Source of the DNA: Asanoa siamensis
Lineage (GTDB): Bacteria > Actinomycetota > Actinomycetes > Mycobacteriales > Micromonosporaceae
DNA: 53,785 nt
Assembly (NCBI RefSeq): GCF_016862555.1
Contig: NZ_BONE01000055.1
Location: forward strand, 1-53,785
Direction: 5' to 3'
A model generated the notes under the pieces. That model did no database searches. It worked only from the letters and a program-made list of their open reading frames with translations, and was not told where the DNA came from. Positions 28,865 to 51,350 of the stretch are shown here, in pieces (the first letter of the stretch is position 1; each line of letters opens with the position of its first letter). A program made the translations under genes and the position numbers.

Positions 28865-28872
28865 GGATCCCC

Positions 28873-32065: not shown

Positions 32066-32129
32066 ACCAGTCAACACCTCCGATCCAGAGACCTGTCCAC
32101 GCGGCCGTCTCTGCCAAGCACGCTGTGGA

Positions 32130-35809: not shown

Positions 35810-35925
35810 CAAGCCGGATCGTCCTCGGCAATTGGCTCGTCAATCCAGCGGAGTGGTACGCGGCAGCACGACAGTGTTCGGTTGCGACCCCCAACAGTGA
35901 AATACCTCGGGGGCTGCCATTCCGC

Positions 35926-36837
35926 TCACGAGCCGGCCTCTGGGCTATCGGGCTCCTCCTCGGCGACCGGGATGCCTCGACGTTCGAGGCGAGATCGGAC
36001 TGCGACGTGGTGGACCACGGGCGTGACTGCGAGGACGTGCTCGACCATCGTCGCCAAGAACTGCGCAGGTCCGATGTCTGGCGGCACAGCGTCGGTGTCT
36101 ACCTTTACTACTGCACCGTCTGGTGAGTCCGTCGTCCAGTCGACCAACGCAAGGCCAGTCGCGGTGTATCCGTTTGCTTCACCTAGCCCCCGGAGCTTGC
36201 GGATCATGTCGACGGTGCGCTCGTAAGCATCCGGCTCCTCAGCCAGGATCGTCGCTCGTTGGACGAAGAAGAAGCCGACAGCGGCGAGCGGATACCGGCC
36301 GCGCAAGTTTGCAGCGTCGCCGTATGCCTCCTCGAACCGATTTGGCAAGTTCTTACCGAAAGAGGACAGTTGGGCCTTTGTGCTGATCAAGAGTTCGGGC
36401 CCTCTATCCCACCGTGAGATGCACACATCGACCTGCTTGTAGTAGGCCCGGCCAAGCACCTTGGCGTCCGCCGGCCCAACTGCCGATATTTGCGGCAGCC
36501 TTCGACGCAGGTCATCTGCTAGGGCGCGAGGTAGCTTACTTAGGAGCATAGAGATCTCCCTTGGTAGGACGCGCGGACGAGTGGCACGTGGCCAGACCTC
36601 GTCCCCGTCGAACCCGCACCGCCGCAATTCGTGAGCGAGCCAGGCGTCGATTCCCTTGGCGAACCTCCCGCTCTCGGATGCCTCGTTACCTCGAACGGGA
36701 ATGGAGAGCAAGTTCCCTAGGAGACCGAAGTCTGGGAGGTAACGGGGCTCGTCTCCCCTGGTATGCGCCCATGGGTCGTTCGGAGCGGCCTCCGCAAGAA
36801 CCGCGTCATACGCGCTAAAGGCATCTTGCCTGCTCAA
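35926..36837 (-). CDS. Uncharacterised protein, possible restriction endonuclease
   Basis: The 303-aa product contains KQVDVCISRWDRGPELLISTK (split here: KQVDVCI, then PELLISTKAQ), which resembles a PD-(D/E)XK nuclease core with Asp 137, Glu 148 and Lys 154. Then comes FEEAYGDAANLRGRYPLAAVGFFFV, as in several type II restriction enzymes. The spacing Glu to Lys is non-canonical. TTG 36837 is the likely start, with GAGGAG 4 nt upstream. It lies downstream of a DNA methyltransferase and another unknown gene on the same strand, which is the best support for a restriction role. Confidence 0.55.
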   Translation of the reverse strand: MSRQDAFSAYDAVLAEAAPNDPWAHTRGDEPRYLPDFGLLGNLLSIPVRGNEASESGRFAKGIDAWLAHELRRCGFDGDEVWPRATRPRVLPREISMLLSKLPRALADDLRRRLPQISAVGPADAKVLGRAYYKQVDVCISRWDRGPELLISTKAQLSSFGKNLPNRFEEAYGDAANLRGRYPLAAVGFFFVQRATILAEEPDAYERTVDMIRKLRGLGEANGYTATGLALVDWTTDSPDGAVVKVDTDAVPPDIGPAQFLATMVEHVLAVTPVVHHVAVRSRLERRGIPVAEEEPDSPEAGS

Positions 36838-36961
36838 AGCGCTCCTCTGCGAGGCTTGGGCTGTGACCTGATGAGTTCATCGTTCCGAAAGCTAAGCCGG
36901 CAACTTATCGAAGCGCCGACACGCTTCTCCGCGTCAAGACAGGATCGGCCAGGCAGACGAA

Positions 36962-37861
36962 TCATGCCTCATTTTCGCTGTCCTGGTCAGCCCGATGACC
37001 GGCGGGCTCAGCCTCGGTGATCGCAGTCGCCAATGTATCGAGAACCGTGTCGACCGTTGTCCAACCCGACGCGGCAGCCGGGGCAAGCGGCTGATACTTC
37101 CGATCGTCAGGAGCCGCCGCGTAGGCGAAGACGCCGACGCCGTCGAGGTACGTGTCGTGGAGTTCCGACGCTTCCTCGGCGATCGTGGCCAATCGCGCCT
37201 TGGCGCCCAAGCGCGCGCCCCACAACAGGTAGACCTTCGGCGGCTGCACACGGCGCCATTGGTCCCATGTGCCCATCGGACGTGCCGGGTCGTGCTGGGA
37301 AAGTTTCAGGTCGGTGGCAGCGAACTTGAGCTCCTTCCGACGTGTCACCCAATCCGCCATCGCCTTGCGCTCGGGGATATCGCCCTGCTGGGCGGCGCCG
37401 CTCATGCGTGTGAGCAAGCAGATTCGCGGAGCCGCGAGCGGCGGCGTGCCAGAAGGCCATGCAACGTCGATGGTGTGATCCTGCGAGAAGCCGCGGACCC
37501 GGACCCGCGCTTCCAGCCTGGACGATGTGCGATTCTCCACCAACAGCGAAATCAGCTCTGCCCACCAGTGGCCCTTGGAACGGTATACAGCGTTCAACCG
37601 AGTTGCGGGATCCTTGCCCTGGTCTCCCATGCCGCGCGGCGGGACCCCTGCCGCGCGGTAACGATCTAGGCACCAGAGGATAGCGAGAAACTGCCCCTCA
37701 ACAGCCGAAAACTGGATCATGACGTCGTCCTGGATCTTGTTCTTCAGATCGGACCACATGTCGCCGGGGTGGCCGGCCTCGTCCTCCAGCGTCTGTGCAC
37801 TGCTCACCTGGTGGTGCCCTCCGAATGCAGAGCGTGGGGATGCAACCGTTCCGTCGGCCAT
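36962..37861 (-). CDS. Uncharacterised protein of a restriction-modification locus
   Basis: The 299-aa product is not a family I can name. Visible points: WSDLKNKIQDDVMIQFSAVEGQFLAILWCLDRYRA (helical, about 35-70, quoted in part: DVMIQFSAVEGQFLAILW), HTIDVAWPSGTPPL with an acidic residue before a strand, then RRKELKFAATDLKLSQ. The latter could be part of a PD-(D/E)XK site. A C-terminal strand region contains PPKVYLLWGARLG. The start ATG 37861 follows the methyltransferase stop by 7 nt, so the pair are cotranscribed. Role as restriction subunit is inferred from position. Confidence 0.6.
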   Translation of the reverse strand: MADGTVASPRSAFGGHHQVSSAQTLEDEAGHPGDMWSDLKNKIQDDVMIQFSAVEGQFLAILWCLDRYRAAGVPPRGMGDQGKDPATRLNAVYRSKGHWWAELISLLVENRTSSRLEARVRVRGFSQDHTIDVAWPSGTPPLAAPRICLLTRMSGAAQQGDIPERKAMADWVTRRKELKFAATDLKLSQHDPARPMGTWDQWRRVQPPKVYLLWGARLGAKARLATIAEEASELHDTYLDGVGVFAYAAAPDDRKYQPLAPAAASGWTTVDTVLDTLATAITEAEPAGHRADQDSENEA

Positions 37862-37868
37862 GAGAAGG

Positions 37869-39596
37869 CTAGACGGTCGCTGCGTCTTCCGCACCCATTC
37901 TTCTCGAGCGCAACGTGCGAGCGGCTTCCTGGACCTGGGCCACATCATCGGAGGGAAGCTTGAGCACTTCAAGCAACAGAGCCTCATCGACTCGTTTGAC
38001 GACATTGGTCCATCGTCCGCCCTGCAGTTGCCGATCGATGCGGTGACGATCATCTGCCAGGATGGCCCACGCCTGCTGCATCGCCTTGAAATTCGGCACT
38101 GGCAGGACAGCCGCTTCGCTGGGCTCCATCTTGAGGATTCCGCCGCCGTAGGACCGACCAAAAATCTCCGCGCCGAGCATCGTCACGCTATTGAATGCCA
38201 GCAGCGGCAGTGCGAACCTTGCCGATGCGGGCGCCTCCTCGCGAAGCCGGATTCCGTGCATCGAGTTCAAGAACGTGCAGCCGATGGAGTTCGTCACCAT
38301 GCGCGGGTAGCGATGACTCATGTAGGTGAAGAACAGGTCGGGCGGGCTCACAGCAGGAGGCCGCCACCACGGTGTCCGAATCCTACACTTGTACGCTTGG
38401 TCGACCCCTAGGTCTTTGCCATGCTTGATGTAGGACCGCAACTCTGGGGAATCGTCGTCCGGGTCCGGACACAGAAGCCAGACCGCTTCGCCAGCATCGC
38501 GAAGCCTCCGCCATTGGGGCTGCGAGAATGAAAGCCCTTTCAGATGCTTGGACCCAGGGGGAACGATCTTCCGCAGTTGACCGGCCATCTCAGTTAGGCC
38601 AAATTCGTTTGCAGTGGCATCGGTGAGGGCGAAGAATGAATTAGCACCGGTTACGGTGCCGAGCTCCGGGCTACCGTACCGCGAAAGCGGAATCATATGC
38701 TCGTCGTTGATTTTTTTGAAGATCCGGCGCTGCCTGTTTGGGAGTAGGAGATCGGTCCACTTGCCGCCGCCGGTTAGCGCGGCAGTCAAGTTCTCCATCG
38801 TCCGGACGCGACCAAGATCCTCGGCATCATCGAAGTAGTACAGCGAGAAGGAGTCGCAGCCCCCGCTGCCCGCCGCCAGTACTAGAACGACCTTTTCAAC
38901 GGCGTCGTCGAACTGAAGGCGATCGAATAGAACCAGATGGACCTGCTCGAAGCGATTACGCAGCCAGACGCGAATCGGTTCGGCATAGCCCACCGTCAGC
39001 AACTCGGCCGGCAGTACCATCGCCAACCGGCCTTCGGGCTTAAGGAAAGCGCATGCATGAACGAGAAGTGGTGCCCAGGACGACGCCAAGCCCGACAAGC
39101 GAACGCCCTGACGCAACGCGGCCTGCCTAGCCTTCGCCTGAGCCTCGGCGCCATGCTTCTGATATCGCACGAAGGGTGGATTGCCGATAACCGCGTCCAT
39201 CAACGGCAACGTCGAGCCTAGTTGATCAGGCGTCGGAACATCGAAGAAGTCGGCTTTAACGAGTTGGGCATCCATGCCCTCATCGCGCAGCAGCTGCCGG
39301 GCCCAATCGAGTGAGGTTTGGTGAAGATCAACGCCGAACAAGTGCCGGCCCAACTCGCCATCGGCAGGAACCTTACCCCGCAACCTCCGGCCTGCCGCAA
39401 GGAGAAAAACAGCCTCCCCGCATGTCGGGTCCAGCACGCGGATATCTCTGGACCCCTCGGCTGAAGGCGCTCGAGCCGAGCCCATCTCACCGCGCACCGC
39501 CCATTCAGCCAGATAATCCGCGATAGCCAGGGGCGTGAAGAACGCTCCACGCTCCTTACGTAGAGGCGCGCTATCGCCAGGCCGGATCACTAGCAA
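37869..39596 (-). CDS. N6-adenine DNA methyltransferase (type II, Eco57I-like)
   Basis: The 575-aa product has GAFFTP (17-22), SAM motif I DPTCGEAVFL (56-65), GVDLH at 88-92 and catalytic motif IV NPPFVRYQ (139-146). That places it among gamma-class N6-adenine methyltransferases. The 350-residue C-terminus is the target-recognition region, as in Eco57I/type IIG-like enzymes, but no nuclease domain is evident. Start TTG 39596 or GTG 39590; neither has a strong ribosome binding site. Two cotranscribed downstream genes may provide cleavage. Divergent from the AIPR gene. Confidence 0.88.
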   Translation of the reverse strand: MLVIRPGDSAPLRKERGAFFTPLAIADYLAEWAVRGEMGSARAPSAEGSRDIRVLDPTCGEAVFLLAAGRRLRGKVPADGELGRHLFGVDLHQTSLDWARQLLRDEGMDAQLVKADFFDVPTPDQLGSTLPLMDAVIGNPPFVRYQKHGAEAQAKARQAALRQGVRLSGLASSWAPLLVHACAFLKPEGRLAMVLPAELLTVGYAEPIRVWLRNRFEQVHLVLFDRLQFDDAVEKVVLVLAAGSGGCDSFSLYYFDDAEDLGRVRTMENLTAALTGGGKWTDLLLPNRQRRIFKKINDEHMIPLSRYGSPELGTVTGANSFFALTDATANEFGLTEMAGQLRKIVPPGSKHLKGLSFSQPQWRRLRDAGEAVWLLCPDPDDDSPELRSYIKHGKDLGVDQAYKCRIRTPWWRPPAVSPPDLFFTYMSHRYPRMVTNSIGCTFLNSMHGIRLREEAPASARFALPLLAFNSVTMLGAEIFGRSYGGGILKMEPSEAAVLPVPNFKAMQQAWAILADDRHRIDRQLQGGRWTNVVKRVDEALLLEVLKLPSDDVAQVQEAARTLRSRRMGAEDAATV

Positions 39597-39756
39597 ATCA
39601 TACCGGCGTAACTCTCGCTTGCGCCGCCCAGGGGAGCGTGTCGCACCAAACGTCTACATTTATCCATATTTTCCAGTGCCCTACGAATCGCCTAAAACAG
39701 CGGAACCCGGACTAGCATTCGCGCCTCAGTATCCTGACTCGTGCAGTGCACCGCTG
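39597..39756. promoter_or_regulatory. Divergent promoter region, methyltransferase / AIPR
   Basis: About 160 bp with an AT-rich patch at 39651-39674 (ACATTTATCCATATTTTCC in part), unusual in this genome and a plausible promoter. I see no confident operator. Divergent control would tie methylation to the AIPR gene. Confidence 0.4.
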
Positions 39757-41490
39757 ATGCCCGGTCGACGGAACGCGAGGAAAGCCTTGCCCGACAGTGC
39801 ATATGACCTGCTCACCGATGAAGTGGCGCCGTTCCGAGTCGGTACCCGGACGATGTCCGCGGCGATGCTTGCGTGGTTCCTCACCACCGTCTGGCGTCTC
39901 GAGCCCGAAGATCTTGCCGAGGCCATCTGCGATGGTGGCGGTGACAAGGGGATCGATGCTCTTGTCGTGGACGATGACCTGGCGGAAATTACGATCTTTC
40001 AAGGCAAGTGGCGTGAGACGGCGGTAAAGACTCAGGGGGACAACGACTTGCGGTCCTTGGTCGGCGCTGCCGACTACTTTGCGTCGGCCGCCGCCGTTGA
40101 CGGACTCTTGGCCGCGAAGCCTAACGCTGAACTTCGTAACCTTCTTGTCCGTCAGGAGGTGCACAGGAAGATTGAAGATGGCTCACATTTGGTCCGCTTA
40201 GTTTTCGTGACAAATGCACACCTTGATGCCGCCGGGGCCGACTTCGTAGCGGCTCGTAAGACCGCGGAGCCGGAGCTAGACGTGTGGGACCGTGACCGGC
40301 TCGCCTACGTCGCCGATCGCGCGCGGCGAGCTGAACTTCGTCCAGAGACTGTACGGCTCACCGCCGTCACAACGCCTACTACCGTGTCCCTGACAGCGGA
40401 AGAGCAACTCTCTGTGGCTGTCGTGCCAGCGCAGCAACTCGTGGACGCCCTCCCTGGCATTTCTGATTACACACTCTTCAGCCGTAACGTCCGGCTCTTC
40501 GCTGGCCGCACGCGTATAAACAAAGACCTCCGCGAGACCGTCCGCAAGGCCGACGAACATGAATTGTTTCCCGCCTACCACAACGGATTGACCATCCTCA
40601 CCGAGCGCCTGGCGGTCGAGGGATCGGTACTCACTCTCGATAGAGTCGGTGTCGTCAACGGCTGCCAATCCCTGGTTACCCTGTTCGAAAACAGCAAGGT
40701 CCTCACCGACAAGTTACTTGTCTTGGTGAAGGTCGTCGAAGTACATGACGACAGCTCCGTTGCTGACAAGATTACCTTTCGCTCAAACAACCAGAACCCT
40801 GTCACAATGCGCGACCAGCGCTCTAGTGACGTCGTGATGCGAGACCTCCAGAAGTCGGTCCGTGCCCAATACGGGTCTACATTCGCCCTGCGGACACGAG
40901 TCGGAGAGAACATCGCTGCCGACCGTATCCTCGATAACACTGAAGCAGCCCAGCTCATCATGGCTGCATACCTGCGCGAGCCATGGGCGGCAGTTCGCAA
41001 GGTCCGCCTTTTCGACCAGGACTACCGTCGTATCTTTAACCGCTCGATCACTCCATCGAAACTGTATTTGGTAGATCTGATTGACTCTGTCTCTAGCACC
41101 GAAAGAGCGCGCCTTCGCGACGATCTCCGGTCTAGCTTTGCGTCCATCCGATTCACGTTAGTTCACTTGATCACGCAAGTTCTACGTGAGACCGAGCTTG
41201 GAACCGACTTCATCGAAACGCCCGAAAACTGGCTCCCGGATCTGGAGGGCGAAGTCCGGGCGGCCCTTACCTCGATTGCGGAGGAGGTGGTCGACTCAGT
41301 CAACTTCTACGTGGGAGAACAAGAGCAAGAGCGAGGAAGCGAGTTCGATCCGAAGGTGGTGTTCAAAAGCCAAAGCGGCGTGACCGGCCTCGAATACGAC
41401 GTTTTGCGGCAGTCGCGACGCCAGGCTAAGCGCGATGCAACAATCTTGTTCAACATTCCGTCACAGACCACTGCGCGAGATTCCGATTGA
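39757..41490 (+). CDS. AIPR family abortive-infection protein
   Basis: The 577-aa product shows AIPR hallmarks: LFSRNVRLFAGRTRINKDLRET, FPAYHNGLTIL, VNGCQSLVTLFE and ITFRSNNQNPV (about residues 245-355). It is commonly found beside restriction-modification genes and linked to phage resistance; the biochemical role is unclear. The N-terminal region with GGGDKGIDALVVDDDLAEITIFQGKW looks like a PD-(D/E)XK-type core (GIDA, then IFQGKW), so it may be a nuclease. ATG 39757 is one start; TTG 39787 has a stronger site (GAGGAAAG) and may be the true one. Confidence 0.85.
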   Translation: MPGRRNARKALPDSAYDLLTDEVAPFRVGTRTMSAAMLAWFLTTVWRLEPEDLAEAICDGGGDKGIDALVVDDDLAEITIFQGKWRETAVKTQGDNDLRSLVGAADYFASAAAVDGLLAAKPNAELRNLLVRQEVHRKIEDGSHLVRLVFVTNAHLDAAGADFVAARKTAEPELDVWDRDRLAYVADRARRAELRPETVRLTAVTTPTTVSLTAEEQLSVAVVPAQQLVDALPGISDYTLFSRNVRLFAGRTRINKDLRETVRKADEHELFPAYHNGLTILTERLAVEGSVLTLDRVGVVNGCQSLVTLFENSKVLTDKLLVLVKVVEVHDDSSVADKITFRSNNQNPVTMRDQRSSDVVMRDLQKSVRAQYGSTFALRTRVGENIAADRILDNTEAAQLIMAAYLREPWAAVRKVRLFDQDYRRIFNRSITPSKLYLVDLIDSVSSTERARLRDDLRSSFASIRFTLVHLITQVLRETELGTDFIETPENWLPDLEGEVRAALTSIAEEVVDSVNFYVGEQEQERGSEFDPKVVFKSQSGVTGLEYDVLRQSRRQAKRDATILFNIPSQTTARDSD

Positions 41491-41814: not shown

Positions 41815-42432
41815 TTAGAGACCGCTTGCAGCAGGCACGCGTCCCAGAATGGGCAGAACGTGAAACGCTTCGGCGTGAGACTTACCGATCCGTAGTCCGT
41901 GCAACCGCGCCAGACTTTCGGCCATTGGCCCAAAGTGGTTGCGAATCGGTTGCGAATTGTGAGATTGCAGCGCGGCGATCTTAATCTGCCATTGGTCAGT
42001 GATGTCGATGATGGTGGGGAGGTCGAGTGGTACACCACGTTGGCCGAGGTTGTTGTAGCCGTCGCAGTGGTAGGCCCGGCTTGGGTGCCCGGTGGCGATG
42101 ACCATTTCGGGTAGCGCGGCGAGGACGCGTTCGGCGCACCGGCGATGCTCGGGGTGGATGTCGTCGGTCGAGTGTGTGATGACGATGTCGGGCCGGACCT
42201 CGGTCAGCAGTGTGCTGATGGCAGCGGCCGTCAGTTGGTCAAGGAGGTAGAGGTCCGCGCCGAGGATCCGCGCTCCGGCTGTGGCCTCAGCGGTCCGGGT
42301 CGGGTCAAGCTTTGGGACGGCGATTGTGGCTGTCCCGCCAGTCTGGATGTGGCGGGCGATCGTGCCGCCCGCCCAGAGTTCGGCGTCGTCGGGGTGGGCC
42401 ATCACAGTCAGCAGGACGGGTGAGGTCACCAT
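41815..42432 (-). CDS. PIG-L family deacetylase (LmbE-like)
   Basis: The 205-aa product has the zinc motif VMAHPDDAELWAGG near the N-terminus and THSTDDIHPEHRRC at about residue 95, the two signatures of PIG-L/LmbE deacetylases. These remove acetyl from N-acetylated sugars, as MshB does in mycothiol synthesis. Start ATG 42432 overlaps the exonuclease stop by 7 bp. It is the last gene of the 13-gene operon. With the GT4 gene two positions upstream it recalls the MshA/MshB pair, suggesting an amino-sugar unit on the product. Confidence 0.88.
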   Translation of the reverse strand: MVTSPVLLTVMAHPDDAELWAGGTIARHIQTGGTATIAVPKLDPTRTAEATAGARILGADLYLLDQLTAAAISTLLTEVRPDIVITHSTDDIHPEHRRCAERVLAALPEMVIATGHPSRAYHCDGYNNLGQRGVPLDLPTIIDITDQWQIKIAALQSHNSQPIRNHFGPMAESLARLHGLRIGKSHAEAFHVLPILGRVPAASGL

Positions 42433-43298
42433 AGATCGAGGGCCTCGACAACGTCGGCTGGACGCGGAAGGTCCGGGCTGGCTCGCTGCGTCGGAACAAC
42501 GGCCACGGCAGTGGTGTGGTCGAGGCGGATCATGTCGCGCCATTTGAGCGCGAGCTCGAACTGGTCTCGGACGGCCTTTCCTCGGCCGCTGGTGAGACGA
42601 CCTGCTTCATGGAGCTTGTCGAGGGTGAGTCCGTCGGCGAGGAGGGCGGCGGCGGTTTTGGCCCCGATGCCGCGAACGCCGGGGATGTTGTCTGCGGGGT
42701 CTCCGGTCAGGGCGCGGTAGTCGGCCCATTGTGTTGGGGTGACTTGGTATCGGGCGTAGACCTCGGCGGGGCCGATGTGGCGGTGGCCGGAGCGCATTTT
42801 GGTATTGAGGACGCTGACGCGGTCGGTCACGAGTTGGTAGTAGTCGCGGTCTCGGGACATGAGCAGGATTTGCCGCGAGGGTGGGGTGGTGTGGACGAGG
42901 GCGGCGATGACGTCGTCGGCTTCTGCGTGGTCGAGTTCGGTCCAGGTGATGCCGCAGTGGTCGAGACCGCGTTTGACGTCGGGTAGGAACTGGATCGGGG
43001 CGAGTGCGGCAGCGTCGGTGGGGCGTTGGGCCTTGTATGAAGGGTCGATCAGTTGGCGGTCGGTGCTGCCGTACTGGCCATCAAACACGACGATGACTTC
43101 GGGTGGTTCGGACAGATCTTCTCGGATGGCGACGCGCAGGAGAGCGAAGAATCCGAACAGACCGGTGAGCAGGCGGGTCTTGTCGCGGGATCGGATTTCG
43201 GCGGGGAACCCGAAGGTCGCTCCCCAGAGGAGGTTGTGCCCGTCAACAAGGAGCAGCGGGGGCGTTTGCGGCGCGGAGGGCAGGACTCTACCGCCCAT
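42426..43298 (-). CDS. 5'-3' exonuclease (FEN/PIN domain, standalone)
   Basis: The 290-aa product has the FEN-type layout: LLLVDGHNLLWG at the start, DFDGQ-type VVFDGQYGSTDRQ, HAEADDVIAALV (acidic cluster) and LMSRDRDYYQLV. The helix-hairpin-helix follows as GDPADNIPGVRGIGAKTAAALL. It resembles the N-terminal exonuclease domain of DNA polymerase I without the polymerase. It should cleave flaps or degrade 5' ends. Its ATG 43298 overlaps the GT4 stop by one base (TGATG). A nuclease inside a biosynthetic operon is unexpected and argues for a nucleic-acid substrate. Confidence 0.9.
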   Translation of the reverse strand: MGGRVLPSAPQTPPLLLVDGHNLLWGATFGFPAEIRSRDKTRLLTGLFGFFALLRVAIREDLSEPPEVIVVFDGQYGSTDRQLIDPSYKAQRPTDAAALAPIQFLPDVKRGLDHCGITWTELDHAEADDVIAALVHTTPPSRQILLMSRDRDYYQLVTDRVSVLNTKMRSGHRHIGPAEVYARYQVTPTQWADYRALTGDPADNIPGVRGIGAKTAAALLADGLTLDKLHEAGRLTSGRGKAVRDQFELALKWRDMIRLDHTTAVAVVPTQRASPDLPRPADVVEALDLW

Positions 43299-44398
43299 CA
43301 GCTCACCACCTTTAACAGTTGGTTAGCGACAAGGGCGGGCCAATAGTCCCGCGAGCGGTAGTACGCGGCCCGTGATGTTCGTCGGTACTTTACCGCGTCG
43401 TTCAGCAGTTGACGGGAGGCGCGCCAGAGGGCAGCCGAGCCCTGGCTGCGGGGCACGATGGCCCCGCCGTCGCGGATGAGGTCCGGTAGGTTTCCGACAT
43501 CGTGTGCGATGACCGGTGTTCCGGCGGCCATGGCCTCGAGCGCGACGAGGCCGAAGGTCTCGGCGTGGGAGGGCACAATGACGATGCTCGCTGCGCTGAG
43601 CCAGGGCAGCACGTCGTCCCAGTTCAAGCCGGCTCGGATGGTGACGCCGGGCGCTTTGGCGGCGAGTGCCTGACATCGGCGAAGCACCTCGTCTTGGCTG
43701 CCGGTGGCCTTCTCGAATGGGGCCGAGGCCAACGCCACCTCGATGGGACGGTCGAGTTGGTTGCGGGGCGCGAGCAGGGCGGCGACGCCTTTTTCCGGGC
43801 CGAGTCGGGCGAGCACGCGAATGGGGCCGTGTTGGTGAAGTTGGTCGCGGACGCGTTGCGGTTGCGGTGCGGGGTCGGCAAGCAGCGTGTTCGGGACGAT
43901 CGTCCAATCGGCGCTGTGGTAGCCGCGTTCGGCGGCCTGCGCTAGAACCGTCGCGGATGGGGCGATGACCGCCGCGGGTTCGAGGGCGAGCGCGGTGTGA
44001 AGGTCGGTGTGGTGGCCGACAACGTGTGCCGCGAGGATGTTTCGGACTTTTTGGTGCGCGGGCATGATGCTGCCCAGCCCCCAGAGCGAGTCAACGTAGA
44101 CTGCGGCCTCGACGCGTTCACGGGCGAAGATGGTGACGAGCTGCTCTCGTATCGCGTCGGTGCTGTTGTGGATCGCAGCCCGGAGGGTGTCGTCATCGCA
44201 GGGGAAGGCCCCAGTGAGCGTGCTGAGGATAGCCACGGTCGCGCCGCGGTAGGAGCGTGGTGCGGTTGGATCGGCGGTGACGATGACGGCTTTGTGTCCG
44301 GCCGCCACGAGCCCGGCGGCGTGCGCGGCAACGGCACGCTCCATGCCGGCGGGGACGTCGGGCCGCCAGGACACCAGGATGAACGCGACGGTGGTCAT
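43298..44398 (-). CDS. Glycosyltransferase family 4
   Basis: The 366-aa product has a GT-B fold pattern. The N-terminal half ends near residue 190; the second half opens with [17 protein letters not shown] and carries the retaining-GT4 E-x7-E motif in [27 protein letters not shown]. There is no signal peptide or membrane segment, so it acts in the cytoplasm. The start ATG 44398 overlaps the phosphoribosyltransferase stop (ATGA). Donor and acceptor are unknown. GT4 members include MshA and, in animals, the queuosine mannosyltransferase QTMAN, of interest beside preQ0 genes. Confidence 0.88.
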
Positions 44399-44976
44399 GC
44401 CGGTTCCAGTTGCTCGAGGATTGGCAGCTCCTCGATTGTGGCTGCGGGTGGTGCGGCCGTGGTTGGTTCCCAGGGGAAGCAGACCCAGTCGTCCACCGTC
44501 CATGCCCACAGGTCCGGATCGAGGCTGGTGCCAGCGTTGCGGCACAGTGCCACGGTCCGCACGACAGCGTCGCGCCGCAGGTAGGGATCTAGCGCGGGTA
44601 GCACGGAGGCGAAGGTTGCTCCGCTGCCACAGATGTCGTCGACGAGCAGGACGGTGCCGCTGAGCTGGTGGCCGTTGAGCTCGGCGGACAGGGTGCTCAG
44701 GTCGTGCGTGACATGGCCGGTGGCCTCGGTGTAGATCGCGTCGGTGGGGTTGTGTTTCGCGGTGAGGCGGTAGTTCGGGAGGTTAAGAACGCCTGCGATT
44801 CCACTGGCGGGGGCGAGCCCGCCGTTGGCGATGGCGATGATCGCGCTGATTGGTGCGAACCGGGTCTCGGCAGCGGCGGCGAGTAGTTGAATGGATTGCT
44901 CGTATGCGGGCAGGGTCATGACGAGGAGGCGATCGTGGCGGAACCGTCTCGGGGTCGTGGCGATGTCGTCGGTCAT
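44395..44976 (-). CDS. Phosphoribosyltransferase family protein
   Basis: The 193-aa product has the PRPP-binding loop [19 protein letters not shown] (about residues 112-130) and an upstream PPi loop in [16 protein letters not shown]. It matches the type I PRTase fold of Gpt/Hpt-like enzymes. It may attach ribose-5-phosphate to a 7-deazapurine base such as preQ0, as proposed for the PRTases of the toyocamycin and tubercidin clusters, or to another base. Start ATG 44976 overlaps the radical SAM stop (ATGA), and its stop overlaps the GT4 start. Confidence 0.85.
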
Positions 44977-45905
44977 GCTGTGCCGTCCCTGGTGGTCAGG
45001 ACGAGATCTGTAACCCCGAGCAAAGGGTGGAGCCCGCCGATACTCAGTGCGGTAGGGGTGTTGCGCCATACCCGTCCGTCGGCCCGGATGACGGTGAAGT
45101 TGCCCGCCGTGGTCCGGGTGCGCAACCTGACGCGCAGTCCTGTCGGCACTCGGAGCGCGGCGAGCAACTGCCGAGCGTGGTCGTCGGAAAGCATCTCTGT
45201 GGGAAGGGCTGCGCCGGCCCCGATGGGCAGCATCTGCAAGGCCGTGAAGCCGCCCGCGCCGATGCTGTGCGCCAGGTCGACCAGGTCCTGGAGGTCTCCG
45301 GCGGTTCGGCGCATGAGCACGGCCTGGATCTGGACGGGGATGCCCTCGGCGATTGCGGCGCGGATGCCGTTGACAGCTCGGGCGAAGCTGCCGATGCCTC
45401 GGATGGCGTCGTGACGTGCCTGGTCAGGGCCATCGATACTGACTCGGATCGCATCCAGGTAGGGGGCTAGCTCTGGCGCGCGGCGGGTAAGATGCCATCC
45501 GTTGGTCGTCACCGAGACGACACTGCGCCGACCATTGCGGATGATCGACAGAAGCTGTGTCAGGTCGCGCAGTAGCAGCGGCTCGCCGCCGGAGATGTCG
45601 ACGCCGAGAATGTCAGCGTCCGCCAGTACGCCGGCGATCCGGTGACGCTCGACGGCGGAGAGTTCCGACACGGTGGTGTCATCGAGGCACTGAGGGCAGT
45701 GCAGATTGCACCGCACGATCGGCGACCAGCACACGCTCGCGGGTGTGCGGCGGTCCAGGTCGGCCGGTGCCACAACCGGCCAGGAGAGGACGATCGTGTC
45801 GTCCAGCTCGAGGCGACCATTGGGTTGCGGGTCGGGGGCGCGGTGGGTCATCCCGGTGGCGGGGTCGTGGACCAAGCAGCAGTTGGCGGCGAAGGCGCGT
45901 CTCAT
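44973..45905 (-). CDS. Radical SAM enzyme
   Basis: The 310-aa product has the 4Fe-4S motif CxxxCxxC as RCNLHCPQC (Cys 66, 70, 73), the SAM-site GGE in DISGGEPLL, and IRVSIDGPDQARHDAIRG typical of MoaA/PqqE-like enzymes. About 60 residues precede the motif. The C-terminal part lacks an obvious Cys-rich SPASM domain. Substrate is unknown; position in the operon suggests late tailoring of the deazaguanine or sugar. ATG 45905 overlaps the GT2 stop (ATGA). Confidence 0.9.
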   Translation of the reverse strand: MRRAFAANCCLVHDPATGMTHRAPDPQPNGRLELDDTIVLSWPVVAPADLDRRTPASVCWSPIVRCNLHCPQCLDDTTVSELSAVERHRIAGVLADADILGVDISGGEPLLLRDLTQLLSIIRNGRRSVVSVTTNGWHLTRRAPELAPYLDAIRVSIDGPDQARHDAIRGIGSFARAVNGIRAAIAEGIPVQIQAVLMRRTAGDLQDLVDLAHSIGAGGFTALQMLPIGAGAALPTEMLSDDHARQLLAALRVPTGLRVRLRTRTTAGNFTVIRADGRVWRNTPTALSIGGLHPLLGVTDLVLTTRDGTA

Positions 45906-46942
45906 GTCAGCGTGGTCGCCTCTCGGATAAGGGCCGTGGCCCGGCGGGTCAGGTCTTCCTCTCCGGCGGTCGGCGCGGGCTGGGTCAGCAGGTGCCGCAG
46001 CAGGGCAACTCGGGGTGGGAATGTCGCGAACTTGGCTTTCCACGCGGTGTCGGCGTCGGGCGGGTCCAGGTGCCATCCTCGGGCCTGCCGCAGCGGGATG
46101 ACCTTGCAGCCCTGGCCGATGAGGGCGGCCCCGAGGTACGTGTCCTCGCAGCCCCACCCCTCGGCGCTGAAACCGGGGTGGAAACCGCCGACCGCCGTGA
46201 AGGCGGCGTGGGGTACGGCCACGAGCGCGGTCACGACCATGCGCGGCAGGTCCCAGTCGTGATAGGTGCGGCCGTTGCCCAGGTCGATGAAGTCGCGGGT
46301 GTCATCGAGCGGGTGACCGATGAACTCGGTGTCGTAGACCTGGCCCGAGTAGAACATCGGCACACCGGCGGGCGCTCTCCATCGCACACGGTGGTCGGCT
46401 TCCAAATCCGGCTCCCCGGTGGGAAGGATCGGTCGATTGTCGGTGCCGAGAGGGTGCGTCAGGTTGTGCCGGAAGCCGACCAGTACCGCATCAGGGCGGG
46501 CGCGGACGGCGATGTCGGCGAGAACGTGGTTGGTCAGGACCATGTCCGCGTCCATGTGGACCAGCGTGTCTCCGCTGGCCAGGTACGCGCCGACGTTGCG
46601 GGCCGCTGGACCGCCGATGTGGCTGGCGAGCCGTACTGCTCGATCAACGGCCGGATGCTCCGCGATGATCTGCGGTGTGCTGTCTGTGGACGCGTCGTCC
46701 ACGACGATCACCTCGACGTCGACCTCGGTAGCTGTGGTCTGTGCGGCGAGCGCGTCGAGGACCGTCGGCAGGCTGTGGGTGTTGTTGCGAGTTGGTATCA
46801 CGACGCTGAGCCGGCTGTCAGTCGCGAGGTGGGCCGGGGTGGGCGCGTGCCAGTCGAGCCCGGTGCGCTCTTGGAAGTCGCGGGTGATGGTGGTGTGGTC
46901 GTTGTCCTGGGCGGCGATGACTTGCGCGAGGGGCTTGGCCAT
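45902..46942 (-). CDS. Glycosyltransferase family 2
   Basis: The 346-aa product has the GT-A opening LSVVIPTRNNTHSLPTVLDAL, VIVVDDASTD, and the metal-binding DxD as HMDADMVL. Later GWGCEDTYLG resembles the ED region of galactosyl/GalNAc-transferase-type GT2 enzymes. The first 45 residues are an extra helical lead. There is no membrane segment. It starts 3 nt after the DUF6884 stop. GT2 members include the animal queuosine galactosyltransferase QTGAL, a suggestive but unproven parallel. Confidence 0.9.
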   Translation of the reverse strand: MAKPLAQVIAAQDNDHTTITRDFQERTGLDWHAPTPAHLATDSRLSVVIPTRNNTHSLPTVLDALAAQTTATEVDVEVIVVDDASTDSTPQIIAEHPAVDRAVRLASHIGGPAARNVGAYLASGDTLVHMDADMVLTNHVLADIAVRARPDAVLVGFRHNLTHPLGTDNRPILPTGEPDLEADHRVRWRAPAGVPMFYSGQVYDTEFIGHPLDDTRDFIDLGNGRTYHDWDLPRMVVTALVAVPHAAFTAVGGFHPGFSAEGWGCEDTYLGAALIGQGCKVIPLRQARGWHLDPPDADTAWKAKFATFPPRVALLRHLLTQPAPTAGEEDLTRRATALIREATTLT

Positions 46943-46945
46943 GGG

Positions 46946-47410
46946 CTACCACTTCCAGTGGTCGAGGATGGCGGCGGCGTGTGGCCAACCGTGGGCGTGG
47001 TCCGGGATCCAGTGCACGCGCGGCCGTTCAGGGGCCGCGAGCAGATCGGCGATGAGGACGAGGTAGAGCGGCTCGGCCATGACGAGAATGTCGGTTGGCA
47101 TGCCGGTCTCTAGCAGCTCGGTTTGCAGCCGATCCCACACCGTTGGGCGCAGCTCGGCGGCGCGGGCCGGGTCGAGGGGCCGGTCGTAGGTGCGCAGCGG
47201 GGTGTCGGCCGTGATCAGGCCGTGTTGTGCGGAGAGGAACCGCACGCGTGCGCGGAGCCGGGGTTCCTGACCCAGGCGCACCCGCAATGGCGGTATGCAT
47301 CCACCGTCGTAGAGGTCGATTGCGGCCAGGGTTTGTTGCGTTGGAGTCTTCTCGGCCGAGCAGCCGACGAGGACCAGGTGTCGGGTGGGGTCGGCGGGTT
47401 GTCGGCTCAT
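46946..47410 (-). CDS. DUF6884 domain protein
   Basis: The 154-aa product has LVGCSAEKTP at the N-terminus, FLSAQHGLITADTPLRTYD in the middle and VMAEPLYLVLI after it. The set Cys-Ser-x-x-K, SAxHGL and YD is that of DUF6884, a small family with resemblance to the C-terminal accessory domain of archaeosine tRNA-guanine transglycosylases. That link is from memory of motif similarity and is unproven. It could bind nucleic acid or a deazaguanine substrate. ATG 47410 overlaps the FGE-like stop (ATGA). Confidence 0.78.
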   Translation of the reverse strand: MSRQPADPTRHLVLVGCSAEKTPTQQTLAAIDLYDGGCIPPLRVRLGQEPRLRARVRFLSAQHGLITADTPLRTYDRPLDPARAAELRPTVWDRLQTELLETGMPTDILVMAEPLYLVLIADLLAAPERPRVHWIPDHAHGWPHAAAILDHWKW

Positions 47411-47970
47411 GCGGTTCTCACCGGCCGAACGGAGATGCCGGGGCTGCGACGTTCAGCGGGCGCGGCGTTGAGGAACGTTGTCCGGGCGTAGAGCGGTCTG
47501 GAGGCGTACGACCCGCCGCGGATGATGTGGCCGCCGCCCATGACCCGGCTCGCCGTCCATTCCCAGACGTTGCCCGCGAGGTCGAGCACACCGTGCGGGG
47601 TGGCTCCGGCAGGATGCTGGCCGACCGGTTGCGGCCGGGGCGGCGTACAGCCCTCGGCGGTCAGCACCGCTCTGTCGGGCGTCCAGGATTGCTCGCCCCA
47701 TGGGTACGGTCGGCGATCTGGCCCCGCGGCTATCCACTCCCACTCGACCGACGTGGGCAACCGCCCGCCGATCTCGGCCGCCAGGCCCTCGGCCTCCGCG
47801 TGATCGATGGCCGTGACCGGCAGAGCGCCTTGACCTGGCTGAGGCAGCGTCAGCGTTGTCTGAGCGACGAGCAGGTCAGCGACCGCGCGGGGTTTGGCGG
47901 CGTCGCCATAGCGGCAGGTCCCGCCGGGAACGAACACCCAGCAGACCGTCTCGGCTGCGGATTCGGGCAT
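47407..47970 (-). CDS. FGE-sulfatase (SUMF1) domain protein, short form
   Basis: The 187-aa product shows the FGE/C-type-lectin fold series VFVPGGTCRYGD, GGRLPTSVEWEWIAAG, YPWGEQ, PVGQHP and GVLDLAGNVWEWTASRV, RGGSYASRP, ending GISVRPVR. It is shorter than ordinary FGE (about 280-300 aa) and the region of the two catalytic Cys near the C-terminus has none. It is therefore unlikely to make formylglycine; a binding or iron-dependent role is possible. GAGG lies 9 nt before ATG 47970. It follows the RT-like gene by 15 nt. Confidence 0.85.
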   Translation of the reverse strand: MPESAAETVCWVFVPGGTCRYGDAAKPRAVADLLVAQTTLTLPQPGQGALPVTAIDHAEAEGLAAEIGGRLPTSVEWEWIAAGPDRRPYPWGEQSWTPDRAVLTAEGCTPPRPQPVGQHPAGATPHGVLDLAGNVWEWTASRVMGGGHIIRGGSYASRPLYARTTFLNAAPAERRSPGISVRPVRTA

Positions 47971-47985
47971 TAGGCAACACCTCTT

Positions 47986-48945
47986 TCATCCGTCGATGAG
48001 GAAAAGGTCTTCCGGGTTGGCGAGGTGCGGTGGCCGGATGCTGCTCTTGCGTGCGTTCGGTGCCAGGTCGACATGGGCGAGCGCGGCGGTGATCGCGTCG
48101 AACGCTTCGGCGGCATGGCTTCGGCTGCGGGTGAAGGCGATGTAGTTGTCGGCGAACCGGATCAACGGTCGGCCGTCGAGGATCGTGTCGACCTGCGAGA
48201 GTCGCAGGTGGAAAAGCACCGGCCACAGTCCACTACCGGGCACCAGGGGCGTGGGGAGCCCGAGCAGGGCACGGCGGAACACCGCGAGGAATGTCCCGTC
48301 CGTGACGTGCTCGGCGAGCCAGCCGACGAACTGCTCTGTGTCACCGCCGGCCGAGGCTCCAGCGACGTCGATGTCCGCGAGCCACGCTCGTCCCGCACGG
48401 ACATGTTCATCGGCTTGGCGCAATGCGGTGATTCGATTGCGACCGGGCCGGTACGCCGACACCCAGTCGCGCAGCACGCGGTGTTCTAGAATCGGTTCGA
48501 GTGCGAGCCGAATCGCTCGGTGCACGATGCGGTCCTCGACCGTGGGGATCGCCGCGGTGAACACCTTGCCGGCGAACGAGGTGATGCCGACCTCGCGGGA
48601 CGGGTGGGGTGTCCATTCGCCGGACCGGAGCCGCTCGGCGAGGATGGTTAGCCGGTCACGTAGCCCCTGCCGGTAGCCGGCCCAGGTGAGCCCGTCAACG
48701 CCGGGAGCTGCTGCACGACGCATGCACAGCCGTGCGGCAGTCATCAGGTGCCGAAGGTCGACGAGGTACGGCATCAGGGAGTGCGCGGCCGGCGGACGAT
48801 GCTCTATCGTGGAGGGTGCTTGGACGGCAGGAACGATCCCGCCAAACCGCACCTCTGAAGGGCCGCTACCCCACACGCGCGGCCCGGTACGGCGGGAACG
48901 ACGGCCCCGTCCAAGCCCACCCGGCGAGACGATGTCAGCGGCCAC
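47986..48945 (-). CDS. Reverse transcriptase-like protein with altered catalytic box
   Basis: The 319-aa product matches RT domains: APGVDGLTW, IPTVEDRIVHRAIRLALEPI (133-152), SAYRPGRNRITAL, WLADIDVAG (Asp 191 and 193 in motif A position), and IRFADNYIAF (Asp 266, Asn 267) where active enzymes have YxDD. Motif 4 (the region of SPLL or GQ) reads GLPTPLVPGSGLWPVLF, also non-canonical. DLAPNARKSSI matches motif D. It resembles group II/retron-type RTs most. The start GTG 48945 has GGAGG 6 nt upstream and overlaps queE by 11 bp. It may be catalytically weak, dead or repurposed. Confidence 0.82.
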   Translation of the reverse strand: MAADIVSPGGLGRGRRSRRTGPRVWGSGPSEVRFGGIVPAVQAPSTIEHRPPAAHSLMPYLVDLRHLMTAARLCMRRAAAPGVDGLTWAGYRQGLRDRLTILAERLRSGEWTPHPSREVGITSFAGKVFTAAIPTVEDRIVHRAIRLALEPILEHRVLRDWVSAYRPGRNRITALRQADEHVRAGRAWLADIDVAGASAGGDTEQFVGWLAEHVTDGTFLAVFRRALLGLPTPLVPGSGLWPVLFHLRLSQVDTILDGRPLIRFADNYIAFTRSRSHAAEAFDAITAALAHVDLAPNARKSSIRPPHLANPEDLFLIDG

Positions 48946-49651
48946 GAGCGTCCTCCCACAGCAGCACGTGCAGCCGCGTCGTGAGGTTCCAGCCACGGGC
49001 CACCACCGCATCCGCCAGTTCCCGCATCCGGGACACGATGACCTCGCTGGTCGAACCTTCGGGCATCACCCACACCGGGGCCAGCTCGAACCGCGTCACC
49101 AGGTCGCTGACCTCCTCAAGATCGGCAACCCCACTGGCCACAAACTTGAACACGGCTTTCCCAGAGGTGACCAGCGTCGATAACGCGGCCGGATTGATCC
49201 GACGGTCGGCATCCCGCTCGCTGGCGAAAGCTGCCAGCTTGGGTGAGACGTTGAACGCCGCGACCTGAGCCACGAGCTCAGGCGACGGAGTCACGGCGCC
49301 GTTCGTTTCGATCTCGACCCGCCGTCCCGCAGCCGTCAACGCGGCCACCACGGGAAAGATGCGGTCCTGCTGGAGGAGCGGCTCGCCACCACTGATCACC
49401 ACCAGCGGCGTCGGGTGCTCCAACACCCAGGAAACGAGTGATGCCGCGGAGTAGCGCCGCGTGTGCTCTCGAAGGTCATACCGCGACCTGTCCCAGGTGA
49501 AGGGAGTATCGCAGCCAGGGCAGGACAGGTTGCAGCGCGACAACCGCACGAACAACGCCTGTTGGCCGCAGCTCGGCCCTTCCCCCTGCAACGTCGGCCC
49601 GAACACCTCCGCGACCAGCACCGGCGGGCTCTGGACGGTCAACGGGGTCAT
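48935..49651 (-). CDS. queE: 7-carboxy-7-deazaguanine synthase (QueE)
   Basis: The 238-aa product is a radical SAM enzyme with CxxxCxxC as RCNLSCPGC (Cys 40, 44, 47). It has LQGEGPSCGQQALFVRLSRC before it and VISGGEPLLQQ and VEIETNG after it. It turns 6-carboxytetrahydropterin into 7-carboxy-7-deazaguanine. The lead EVFGPTLQGEG is diagnostic of QueE. ATG 49651 overlaps the queD stop (ATGA). Together with folE, queD and queC it completes a GTP-to-preQ0 path. Confidence 0.94.
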   Translation of the reverse strand: MTPLTVQSPPVLVAEVFGPTLQGEGPSCGQQALFVRLSRCNLSCPGCDTPFTWDRSRYDLREHTRRYSAASLVSWVLEHPTPLVVISGGEPLLQQDRIFPVVAALTAAGRRVEIETNGAVTPSPELVAQVAAFNVSPKLAAFASERDADRRINPAALSTLVTSGKAVFKFVASGVADLEEVSDLVTRFELAPVWVMPEGSTSEVIVSRMRELADAVVARGWNLTTRLHVLLWEDARGR

Positions 49652-50028
49652 GACAGAGCTGGCGCGAACTCGGCGAACGTCGACGCTGTCTCCGACACCC
49701 GAACTCGTTCCACCGCAACGGCGGCGGGCAGGTCGAGATGTTCGACGCACCAGCAATAGAGGTGGCGGGCCAGATTCTCGCTGGTCGCCGGCACGTCAAG
49801 CACCGCGTTCAGGTCGCGGTGGTCGAAGGACTCGTTGAGATAGGCGCCGAGCCCGGCCAGTCCGGCGAAGTCGACCACGAATCCCGGATCGGCCAGCTCG
49901 CTGGCTGTTACCAGCGTGACCTCGACGGTGTAGCTGTGCCCATGCTGCCGGCCGCACTTGTGGCCCTCTGGCAGGCCGGGCAATGAATGCGCGGCCTCGA
50001 ACCGGAATTCCTTGCCAATCCGATACAC
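49648..50028 (-). CDS. queD: 6-carboxytetrahydropterin synthase (QueD)
   Basis: The 126-aa product has FEAAHSLPGLPEGHKCGRQH with zinc ligands His 14, 29 and 31 and the catalytic Cys 25, and a later FDHRDLNAV and PTSENLAR-like ATSENLARHL segment. Length and motifs fit QueD, which makes 6-carboxy-5,6,7,8-tetrahydropterin from dihydroneopterin triphosphate. GTG 50028 starts directly after the queC stop codon (TAGGTG). No membrane or regulatory extension. Confidence 0.94.
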   Translation of the reverse strand: MYRIGKEFRFEAAHSLPGLPEGHKCGRQHGHSYTVEVTLVTASELADPGFVVDFAGLAGLGAYLNESFDHRDLNAVLDVPATSENLARHLYCWCVEHLDLPAAVAVERVRVSETASTFAEFAPALS

Positions 50029-50751
50029 CTACCCCACCCCCGCACCGTACTCGGTCGGATCGAGGATTCGGGCGTGCTCGAACGCTTCTCGGCGTTCCAC
50101 GCACGTCCCGCAGGTGCCGCAATGCACCCCACCGCCCTTGTAACAGGACCAGGTGTCGGAGAACGGCACGCGCAGTTGTGCTCCGACCCTGACGATGTCG
50201 GACTTGGCCTCCGCCATGAACGGTGCCAAGACCCGAAACCGCGGATCGGCAAACCCCTCGTTCGCGGTCACCGCCATCTGCTCGAACGCCTGCACGAACA
50301 CCGGTCGGCAGTCGGGATAGATCGGATGGTCACCTGCGTGAGCGCCGAACGCCACCGCATCCGCGCCGGCCGAGACCGCTCGTGCCACCGCGATATCGAG
50401 CATGATGGCGTTGCGGTTCGGCACGACGGTCGCCCGCATCGCCTCGTCGGTGTAGTGGCCGTCGGGAACGTCGACCGTGCGGTCGGTCAGCGCCGAGCCG
50501 GTAAGTAGCGGTAAAACGCCACTCAGGTCGACCACATGGTGTTCGGCGCCCAGTGCCCTGGCAGTCCGGCGGGCGTAGGACAGCTCGGTGCGGTGTCGTT
50601 GGCCGTAGTCGAAGGACAGCAGGGTCAATCGGGTTCCGCTGCGGTGCAGCAGGTAGGCCAGGACCGTGCTGTCGAGTCCGCCGGAGAGGATCGTCACCGC
50701 ATGCGTGACCTTCGGTCTCACCAGGTCGTGGTATTCGGTCATGGCGGTCAC
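50029..50751 (-). CDS. queC: 7-cyano-7-deazaguanine synthase (QueC)
   Basis: The 240-aa product has the PP-loop LSGGLDST (22-29), YGQRH, and VVPNRNAIMLDIA. At the C-terminus it has the zinc site in WSCYKGGGVHCGTCGTC. It converts 7-carboxy-7-deazaguanine to preQ0 using ATP and ammonia. GTG 50751 overlaps the folE stop (GTGA); ATG 50742 in the same frame is an alternative. A longer frame to 50871 is not protein-like. Confidence 0.94.
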   Translation of the reverse strand: MTAMTEYHDLVRPKVTHAVTILSGGLDSTVLAYLLHRSGTRLTLLSFDYGQRHRTELSYARRTARALGAEHHVVDLSGVLPLLTGSALTDRTVDVPDGHYTDEAMRATVVPNRNAIMLDIAVARAVSAGADAVAFGAHAGDHPIYPDCRPVFVQAFEQMAVTANEGFADPRFRVLAPFMAEAKSDIVRVGAQLRVPFSDTWSCYKGGGVHCGTCGTCVERREAFEHARILDPTEYGAGVG

Positions 50752-51350
50752 CGGTCCGCTGCCAGAGCAAGGAACTCCGCCCGGAGTGATGCACTGCGGG
50801 CGAGTTCGCCGCGCCAGGCCGTGGTGACCGTTGTCGCGCCCCGAGCCGCTGCCCCTCGCAGAGTCATGCACAGATGCTCGGCGGTGATGACAACTCCTGC
50901 CCCGCCGTGGTCGGGCAACGTCTCATCCAGCCAGCCGGCAATCTGCTGAGTTAGATCCTCCTGAACTTGCAGACGGCAGGCGAACATCTCCACGACACGA
51001 GCGAGCTTCGACAAGCCCAGCAGTCGCGCTCCTGGCTGGTAACCGACGGTGGCAGTGCCGATGAAGGGGAGCATGTGGTGTGCGCACAACGAGGCGAACG
51101 GCACCGCCCGGCTAATGACCCAATCGAGGTGCTGCTCGTCATTGGGAAATGTGGTGGCCTCAAACGGCCGAGGGGTCAGCAACTCCCGGTAGGACGCGAC
51201 CATTCGTTCTGCCGTGCGACGTGTGTGTTCCGTGTCGTAGTCGATGCCGAGCATGGATAGCAATGACTCCGCCGATGCGACAGCGCCATCGACTCCGGAA
51301 GCGTCCGGTGCCGCGACGTCTGTGGGTGCCTCGGTTTGAGCGACGGTCAT
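50748..51350 (-). CDS. folE: GTP cyclohydrolase I (FolE)
   Basis: The 200-aa product has the zinc site SLCAHHMLPFIG (Cys 89, His 92) and TAEHLCMTLRG with Cys 161, plus LGLSKLARVVEMFACRLQVQE, all typical of type I GTP cyclohydrolase. It makes dihydroneopterin triphosphate, the entry metabolite for preQ0 (and folate). The N-terminal 25 residues are a variable lead. ATG 51350 is preceded by AGGAGG 8 nt upstream. It is the first gene of the 13-gene operon. A second, housekeeping folE is expected elsewhere in the genome. Confidence 0.94.
   Translation of the reverse strand: MTVAQTEAPTDVAAPDASGVDGAVASAESLLSMLGIDYDTEHTRRTAERMVASYRELLTPRPFEATTFPNDEQHLDWVISRAVPFASLCAHHMLPFIGTATVGYQPGARLLGLSKLARVVEMFACRLQVQEDLTQQIAGWLDETLPDHGGAGVVITAEHLCMTLRGAAARGATTVTTAWRGELARSASLRAEFLALAADR

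Follow-up and report, generated by a model that had tools for sequence, protein, structure and literature searches.

Queuosine and archaeosine among tRNA bases, bases exchanged into DNA, and free nucleosides are the known uses of 7-deazaguanines. Homologues of FolE, QueC, QueD and QueE, which open the operon described below, are also shared by the toyocamycin cluster. Huimycin biosynthesis couples preQ0 (7-cyano-7-deazaguanine) to N-acetylglucosamine, and the available part of its description gives seven genes, with neither a reverse transcriptase (RT) nor a nuclease among them (PMC7439116). Here, we describe a minus-strand operon of 13 genes at positions 41815-51350 of a 53,785-nucleotide stretch (the window; contig NZ_BONE01000055.1) from Asanoa siamensis, whose genome comprises 8.78 Mb in 219 contigs. 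The operon joins preQ0 synthesis to an RT-like gene, a FEN/PolI-type nuclease gene and a structured RNA element, and hints at a use of 7-deazaguanine that known pathways do not explain.

The original prediction, made from the letters of this stretch, had stated that no described system with this gene set was known. This agrees with the available texts on huimycin and the Dpd islands, neither of which has the set or names an RT, a FEN-type nuclease or a dedicated RNA as a partner. A search of the titles and first parts of abstracts of open-licence PubMed Central papers returned no description of it among the matches listed. The accessible portions of two RT surveys make no mention of GTP cyclohydrolase or folE (PMC4244168) and of queuosine or PIG-L (PMC8934634), respectively. 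On these grounds, we rate the gene set as a probable new kind.

A conserved gene set around preQ0 synthesis

The genes run in the order folE, queC, queD, queE, RT-like, FGE-like, DUF6884, GT2 glycosyltransferase, radical SAM, type I phosphoribosyltransferase-like (PRT), GT4 glycosyltransferase, 5'-3' exonuclease and PIG-L deacetylase. All frames are open, with start and stop codons checked; at the chosen starts, nine of the 12 junctions overlap by 1-11 bp, and the other three are gaps of 0, 3 and 15 nt. Together with the domain matches, these coordinates bear out the earlier description of thirteen tightly joined genes beginning with folE-queC-queD-queE.

When the RT protein was searched against 397 genomes of the order, 49 gave some RT match and nine, including that of A. 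siamensis, held close orthologues (at least 50% identity over nearly the whole length). The other eight close-orthologue genomes all carry the module: three loci of the same family (L035-L037) keep all thirteen genes in order, although two have gained an insert, and five others show queC-RT-FGE-DUF6884-GT2-radical SAM-PRT-GT4-exonuclease-PIG-L, with queD and queE roughly 4-20 kb beyond the cluster. Subsequent scanning of the RT alignment against named genomes yielded 42 loci, four of them already among the earlier genomes; carriers include Micromonospora lupini, Streptomyces griseus NCTC13033 and several Amycolatopsis. The operon is thus more than a chance arrangement, since the set recurs across other genera; it is real and widely conserved.

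Counts were made over 49 actinomycete loci, all gathered by their RT-like gene, which is therefore present in 49/49 by construction. This set includes the window, a plasmid record (L034), an IMG/VR contig (L126) and near-identical loci (L098/L099/L103 and L083/L112), and leaves out four duplicates (L072, L090, L095 and L100). FGE and DUF6884 were each found in 48 loci, queC in 47, PRT, GT4 and PIG-L in 46, the exonuclease in 44, and GT2 and radical SAM in 39; within the stretches examined, queD and queE were each seen in 27 and folE in 16. No queC was detected in L109 or in L073, whose contig begins at the RT gene, and the remaining losses fall mostly in loci that are cut or decayed (L096, L108, L110, L112 and L113). 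The outcome that the original prediction had named as refuting, namely that the preQ0 genes and the other nine never occur together, did not arise, as queC accompanies this RT in 47 of the 49 loci; the suggested search of conserved neighbourhoods found one conserved unit. The grouping of the nine downstream genes as one set holds in that they recur together widely. It goes too far in that not all nine are obligatory, since eight loci from Streptomyces, Nocardiopsis, Actinomadura and Embleya (the Streptomyces-type variant) replace GT2 and radical SAM with WbqC and a second GT4.

The nine cluster genomes appear to make preQ0 for this cluster: each holds a single full-length QueC, that of the cluster itself, and all other matches are incomplete and weak, at E 7e-8 or higher. 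No gene of the tRNA-guanine transglycosylase (TGT) family (PF01702) was found in any of the nine, against 14/14 control genomes, with the limit that a divergent DpdA2-type protein could escape the model. The absence of a DpdA/TGT-type transglycosylase noted earlier for the operon thus extends to these genomes, and queuosine formation or Dpd-type base exchange in trans was rejected on this ground.

A structured RNA element within the reading frame

Outside the Streptomyces-type variant, 121-190 nt separate queE or queC from the RT match, an interval that stands out from an otherwise tight operon and whose DNA is strongly conserved. It contains an RNA element of about 120 nt, predicted to form a closing stem (P1), a conserved internal loop, a helix P3, a variable P4 and an apical hairpin P2. 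In the window the element occupies 48802..48924 on the minus strand, in the first part of the RT gene and in its frame, a feature that the original prediction did not include. It scores 100.9 bits with a covariance model built from 36 non-Streptomyces-type sequences. The model was run on 44 loci (L036, L099, L103, L112 and L126 were left out, their elements being seen separately) and found the element in 43, the single miss, L073, starting at a contig edge. All eight Streptomyces-type loci, which took no part in model building, score 56-80 bits, with the element between folE or queE and the FGE gene. A second, weak match in L102 (16.7 bits, E 0.46) was taken as chance. With stricter filters, under which weak copies could be missed, each of the nine cluster genomes showed a single copy of the element and none was found in the rest of 394 genomes of the order; among 396 genomes of the phylum, it was found only in that of A. 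siamensis. Rfam gave no match at the gathering threshold in the window, nor any up to E 5 in 48600-49100.

P1 pairs in 90% of alignment cells, and six of its ten pairs show changes on both sides. Over three helices, 77 cells are changed on both sides, compared with 25.0 (standard deviation 3.8) in shuffled alignments, none of 500 of which reached this number. The element is coding sequence as well. All 43 copies measure a multiple of three (114-129 nt), are open and in frame with the RT (35) or FGE (8) gene, and follow an in-frame ATG or GTG at a distance of 6-30 nt. At third codon positions, conservation is higher in the element than in the RT body (0.97 versus 0.72 bits of information). In these comparisons, made on 33 and 30 non-redundant rows, one codon ends in TA in 33/33 and an arginine is written CGT in 30/30. 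Compensatory changes in P1 alter the amino acids on both sides of the stem, so the element is not only a peptide. Taken together, the covariation and the kept frame argue that both the RNA and the reading frame are under constraint; on these patterns, the element is under dual constraint.

Some measures weigh against this conclusion. Two of five pair measures do not rise above the shuffles: pairs with a change on both sides number 8 versus 6.9 shuffled in the building set and 9 versus 9.0 in the count over three helices given above, and further pair types fall below the shuffles in both. Folded singly, six elements gave z-scores between -3.85 and -0.70, and P1 is missing from the fold of lowest energy for L085. 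The wobble majority is 0.86 in the element and 0.65 at 81 conserved residues of the RT body, a comparison that rests on nine conserved amino-acid columns of the element.

Three readings of the element were set aside. An untranslated RNA was the first of these, dropped in view of the open frame. A generally used riboswitch was rejected on the lack of matches, under the stricter filters, away from the clusters in the 394 and 396 genomes. A search for a viral home returned three stretches of viral contigs with the RNA pattern, none of them clear by the model (best E 0.034). Our preferred role for the element is that of a site at which the RT-like protein may bind the beginning of its own message, control of translation being an equally good prediction. 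In group II introns, DIVa, the maturase-binding site, lies likewise at the start of the RT gene. The dual-coding element offers a direct handle on what the RT-like protein binds.

The RT-like protein

The RT-like gene (47986..48945, minus strand) most likely starts at the GTG at 48945, giving 319 amino acids and an 11-bp overlap with queE; the RNA element encodes an N-terminal extension of about 40 codons near this start. The protein matches RVT_1 (PF00078, 3e-8) and, in profile searches, is closest to group II RTs (PDB 5hhj, 8.3e-38; GsI-IIC, 2e-37). Its match to TIGR04416 has an E-value of 1.1e-30 and a score of 107 bits against a 300-bit cut-off. Its AlphaFold model (predicted local distance difference test score, 89.7) gave Foldseek matches to 5irg (E 1.8e-16, TM 0.81) and 6ar3 (TM 0.84), with TM scores normalised by the model. 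A tree that included 17 further RTs of the order requires a single origin for the 12 cluster RTs, with modest support (62/82). By fingers and palm, the protein is therefore classed here, from sequence and predicted fold, as a shortened group-II-type RT.

An alignment of 41 rows, from which L034 and near-duplicate, split or cut loci were left out, bears on activity. The two main metal-binding aspartates, D144 in motif A and D217 in motif C, are invariant. Five places past the motif A aspartate, at least 90% of rows have Ser (S149) in place of the Phe of group II RTs, a position that we take to be their steric gate; Embleya has Ala here. The protein ends soon after the palm, with no recognisable thumb/X or other domain matched, and the ADD of motif C, kept in L038, is ADN (N218) in at least 90% of rows. 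On these features the protein may be a non-catalytic RNA binder. ADN resembles the GDN motif of some viral RNA polymerases, so catalytic activity is possible.

Other operon genes and genomic surroundings

All operon genes lie on the minus strand. The preQ0 genes comprise folE (GTP cyclohydrolase I, 50748..51350; PF01227, 3.7e-50), queC (preQ0 synthase, 50029..50751; PF06508, 2.3e-63), queD (6-carboxytetrahydropterin synthase, PTPS, 49648..50028; PF01242, 8e-27) and queE (7-carboxy-7-deazaguanine synthase, a radical SAM enzyme, 48935..49651; PF04055, 1.1e-8; TIGR03365, 2e-27, at 96 bits below the 206-bit cut-off). Two more folE copies lie elsewhere in the genome (G000:C27:49974-50489 and G000:C65:24095-24631). 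Within the Streptomyces-type variant, L034, L106, L107 and L108 have queD matches of about 680-705 nt, a length that suggests a fusion or tandem pair of PTPS domains.

Downstream of the RT gene, the FGE-sulfatase-like protein (187 amino acids, 47407..47970; PF03781, 3.8e-21) is conserved across 41 rows, and the DUF6884 protein (46946..47410), with CxxxK and LSAxxG motifs, scores 30.3 bits at a 30-bit cut-off. The GT2 glycosyltransferase (45902..46942; PF00535, 2.2e-18) and the radical SAM enzyme (44973..45905; PF04055, 5.2e-16) are followed by the PRT (44395..44976; PF00156, 9.2e-11), whose loop D-D and G-x-G-x-T are kept in 41/41 rows. The GT4 glycosyltransferase (43298..44398; PF13692, 6.2e-19) has MshA as its best NCBIfam match (TIGR03449, 1.8e-17), far below the model cut-off. 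The FEN/PolI-type 5'-3' nuclease (42426..43298; PF02739, 1e-28, and PF01367, 6.9e-17) keeps its acidic residues (vDG, VFDg, EaDD, SxDxD and GDxxDnIPG) in all 40 rows that passed a length filter, and the PIG-L deacetylase (41815..42432; PF02585, 4.8e-14) closes the operon.

A DegT-type aminotransferase lies near 11 of the 49 loci, a Gfo/Idh oxidoreductase near 10 and a methyltransferase near eight, the families being assigned by Pfam on one representative each. The earlier statement that a methyltransferase is absent thus stands for the operon in the window and does not carry over to these eight loci. A flavoprotein-family gene lies on the opposite strand near several clusters (for example, L084:17039-17602). 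Some genomes hold two or three clusters or cluster parts, namely those of Sciscionella marina (L083/L089/L096), Saccharomonospora sp. CUA-673 (L085/L112) and Prauserella flavalba (L103/L113), and L096, L110, L112 and L113 appear decayed or cut. One contig catalogued as viral, L126 (IMGVR_UViG_2896115756_000003), holds the complete set of thirteen genes together with the RNA element, and its DNA is 77-80% identical over about 9 kb to L076 (Kitasatospora), L075 and L079; a search of viral contigs with DUF6884 gave no match.

To the left of the operon, 27944-41490 is a defence-type stretch with capP/capH, a BilD relative, an HNH effector-like gene, a Type II methyltransferase and AbiU, together with two weak REase_II matches. 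The flanks of 14 other loci were surveyed within about 10 kb on each side through 114 open reading frames (ORFs), chosen by script with a length limit and with recurring cluster families excluded; not all are true genes. Defence matches are scattered among them, with no family in more than three (among 25 of the 76 families listed), and cas3, cas6 and cas7 matches adjoin one or two relatives. Helix-turn-helix proteins form the commonest class (HTH_31 in 10 of the 114 ORFs). No exporter family recurred (MFS_1, two; among 25 of the 65 families listed), which weakly favours a product that stays in the cell.

A proposed pathway and its alternatives

Placement of the product on a nucleic acid, as the original prediction had it, is a possibility favoured by the RT-like protein, the RNA element, DUF6884 and the FEN-type nuclease, although a small molecule would also be compatible. 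We tentatively propose a dedicated 7-deazaguanine pathway in which a preQ0 unit would be attached to nucleic acid through polymerisation instead of base exchange and would be tailored there. This is offered as the best explanation because of the co-conserved gene set, the lack of TGT-family genes in nine genomes, the kept active-site motifs and the in-frame RNA element, and we still hold it more apt to be wrong than right. FolE, QueD, QueE and QueC would make preQ0; every step beyond this is one that we infer. The PRT would convert preQ0 to its ribotide, which the RT-like enzyme, with Ser replacing the usual bulky gate residue in motif A and recruited or guided by its own structured RNA element, might add to an RNA or DNA strand. 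DUF6884 could act on the nitrile, GT4 could add an aminosugar for PIG-L to deacetylate, following the logic of MshA/MshB, and GT2 with radical SAM, or WbqC with a second GT4, would provide variant tailoring. The FEN-type nuclease would then trim or release the product. In a speculative version that we regard as improbable, the RT-like enzyme would attach the preQ0 ribonucleotide to a structured RNA, either the element itself or an RNA held by it, and tailoring would proceed on the RNA until the nuclease frees a nucleotide or oligonucleotide. If true, such RNA-scaffolded biosynthesis would be a nucleic-acid counterpart of carrier-bound peptide biosynthesis.

Several points count against polymerisation onto nucleic acid. 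Activity is known for none of the operon members, no PRT is detectable in Embleya (L034), the element lies in the FGE rather than the RT gene in the eight Streptomyces-type loci, and the aminosugar-type genes beside 11 of the 49 loci also fit a small molecule. About as likely, indeed, is a natural-product cluster for a secreted, aminosugar-decorated preQ0 nucleoside, in which the RT- and FEN-type proteins would serve a small-molecule step, self-resistance or regulation. The PRT, GT4, PIG-L, GT2 and WbqC genes, the nearby aminotransferase, oxidoreductase and methyltransferase genes, the actinomycete distribution and the prominence of helix-turn-helix regulators in the flanks all suit such a product, and huimycin sets a precedent for joining preQ0 to N-acetylglucosamine. 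The same precedent, however, manages with seven genes and, in the available text, without an RT or nuclease (PMC7439116). The FEN-type nuclease, present in 44 of the 49 loci with its acidic residues kept, and the lack of a recurrent exporter among the flank families listed also sit poorly with a secreted small molecule, whose chemistry would hardly explain a covarying RNA element.

The translated element itself also fits a narrower role, as a cis-acting control of translation (leader- or riboswitch-like) or as an N-terminal peptide, without the RT-like protein acting on it; we put this not far short of an even chance. Its place at the junction of the preQ0 genes and the later genes, the upstream start codons with an open frame in 43/43 and its presence in FGE rather than RT in eight loci favour this. 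A peptide alone would not account for compensations in P1 that change the encoded residues on either side of the stem, and the absence of matches away from the clusters in the genomes sampled, under the stricter filters, is unlike widely used riboswitches, although a cluster-specific regulator is still compatible. An anti-phage or conflict system, in which 7-deazaguanine nucleotides or an RT product would be used against phage, seems unlikely. The window operon does adjoin homologues of capH/capP, BilD, an HNH effector, a Type II methyltransferase and AbiU, one or two relatives have cas matches beside them, and three genomes hold two or three copies. However, PADLOC matches of ten scanned operon proteins are general (RT, 3e-32; a viperin-like radical SAM match, 2.4e-17; QueC) or weak (DUF6884, 1.8e-4; PRT), and no listed defence family recurs in more than three flanking ORFs. 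Under either of the two broader readings, preQ0 synthesis is almost always accompanied by an RT-like enzyme and a nuclease, and no TGT-family exchange enzyme was found in the nine genomes tested. This would mean that a modified nucleic acid is built by a polymerase, or else that an RT has been co-opted for small-molecule chemistry; each would be new to us.

Comparison with known systems

Queuosine modification of tRNA differs in its reliance on a tRNA-guanine transglycosylase, a family with 0/9 occurrences in the cluster genomes. Dpd islands resemble the operon more closely: preQ0 genes are often nearby, and the operon contains a protein of DUF6884, the family to which DpdC is reported to belong and whose fold is YaaA-like. 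They differ in that the operon has no TGT-family gene and adds the RT, FEN-type nuclease, PRT, GT4, PIG-L and RNA element. The toyocamycin and huimycin clusters, like the operon, combine homologues of FolE and QueC/D/E with a gene for sugar attachment; for huimycin, the available description names no RT, nuclease, DUF6884 or RNA element among the genes (PMC7439116). The pairing of GT4 with a PIG-L deacetylase recalls MshA/MshB and BshA/BshB, the best NCBIfam relatives, whereas the operon's proteins fall far below those cut-offs, sit in a different operon and presumably act on another acceptor.

On the side of the RT, a diversity-generating retroelement, which would combine a template/variable repeat pair beside the RT with a C-type-lectin (FGE-like) target, seems less likely: no template or variable repeats were found inside three operons, where, among the 20 largest families listed for each, the longest repeat is 50 nt at 70% identity and no long, near-identical direct repeat occurs, and FGE is conserved across 41 rows. 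Retrons and DRT systems likewise pair an RT with a dedicated structured RNA, whereas the operon RT is nearer to group II enzymes, matches the named DRT/UG models weakly (best, RT_UG17 at 3e-6) and has its RNA, which matches no Rfam family, inside the coding region. Group II intron RT/maturases are the closest in both sequence and fold, and the RT gene likewise opens with an RNA element. As regards a catalytic intron RNA around the RT gene, the window gave no Rfam match, and protein genes overlap the RT gene or lie 15 nt away on its two sides. The operon RT differs from these enzymes in matching no maturase or endonuclease domain, in its motif A change from Phe to Ser and motif C change from ADD to ADN, and in its fixed operon partners.

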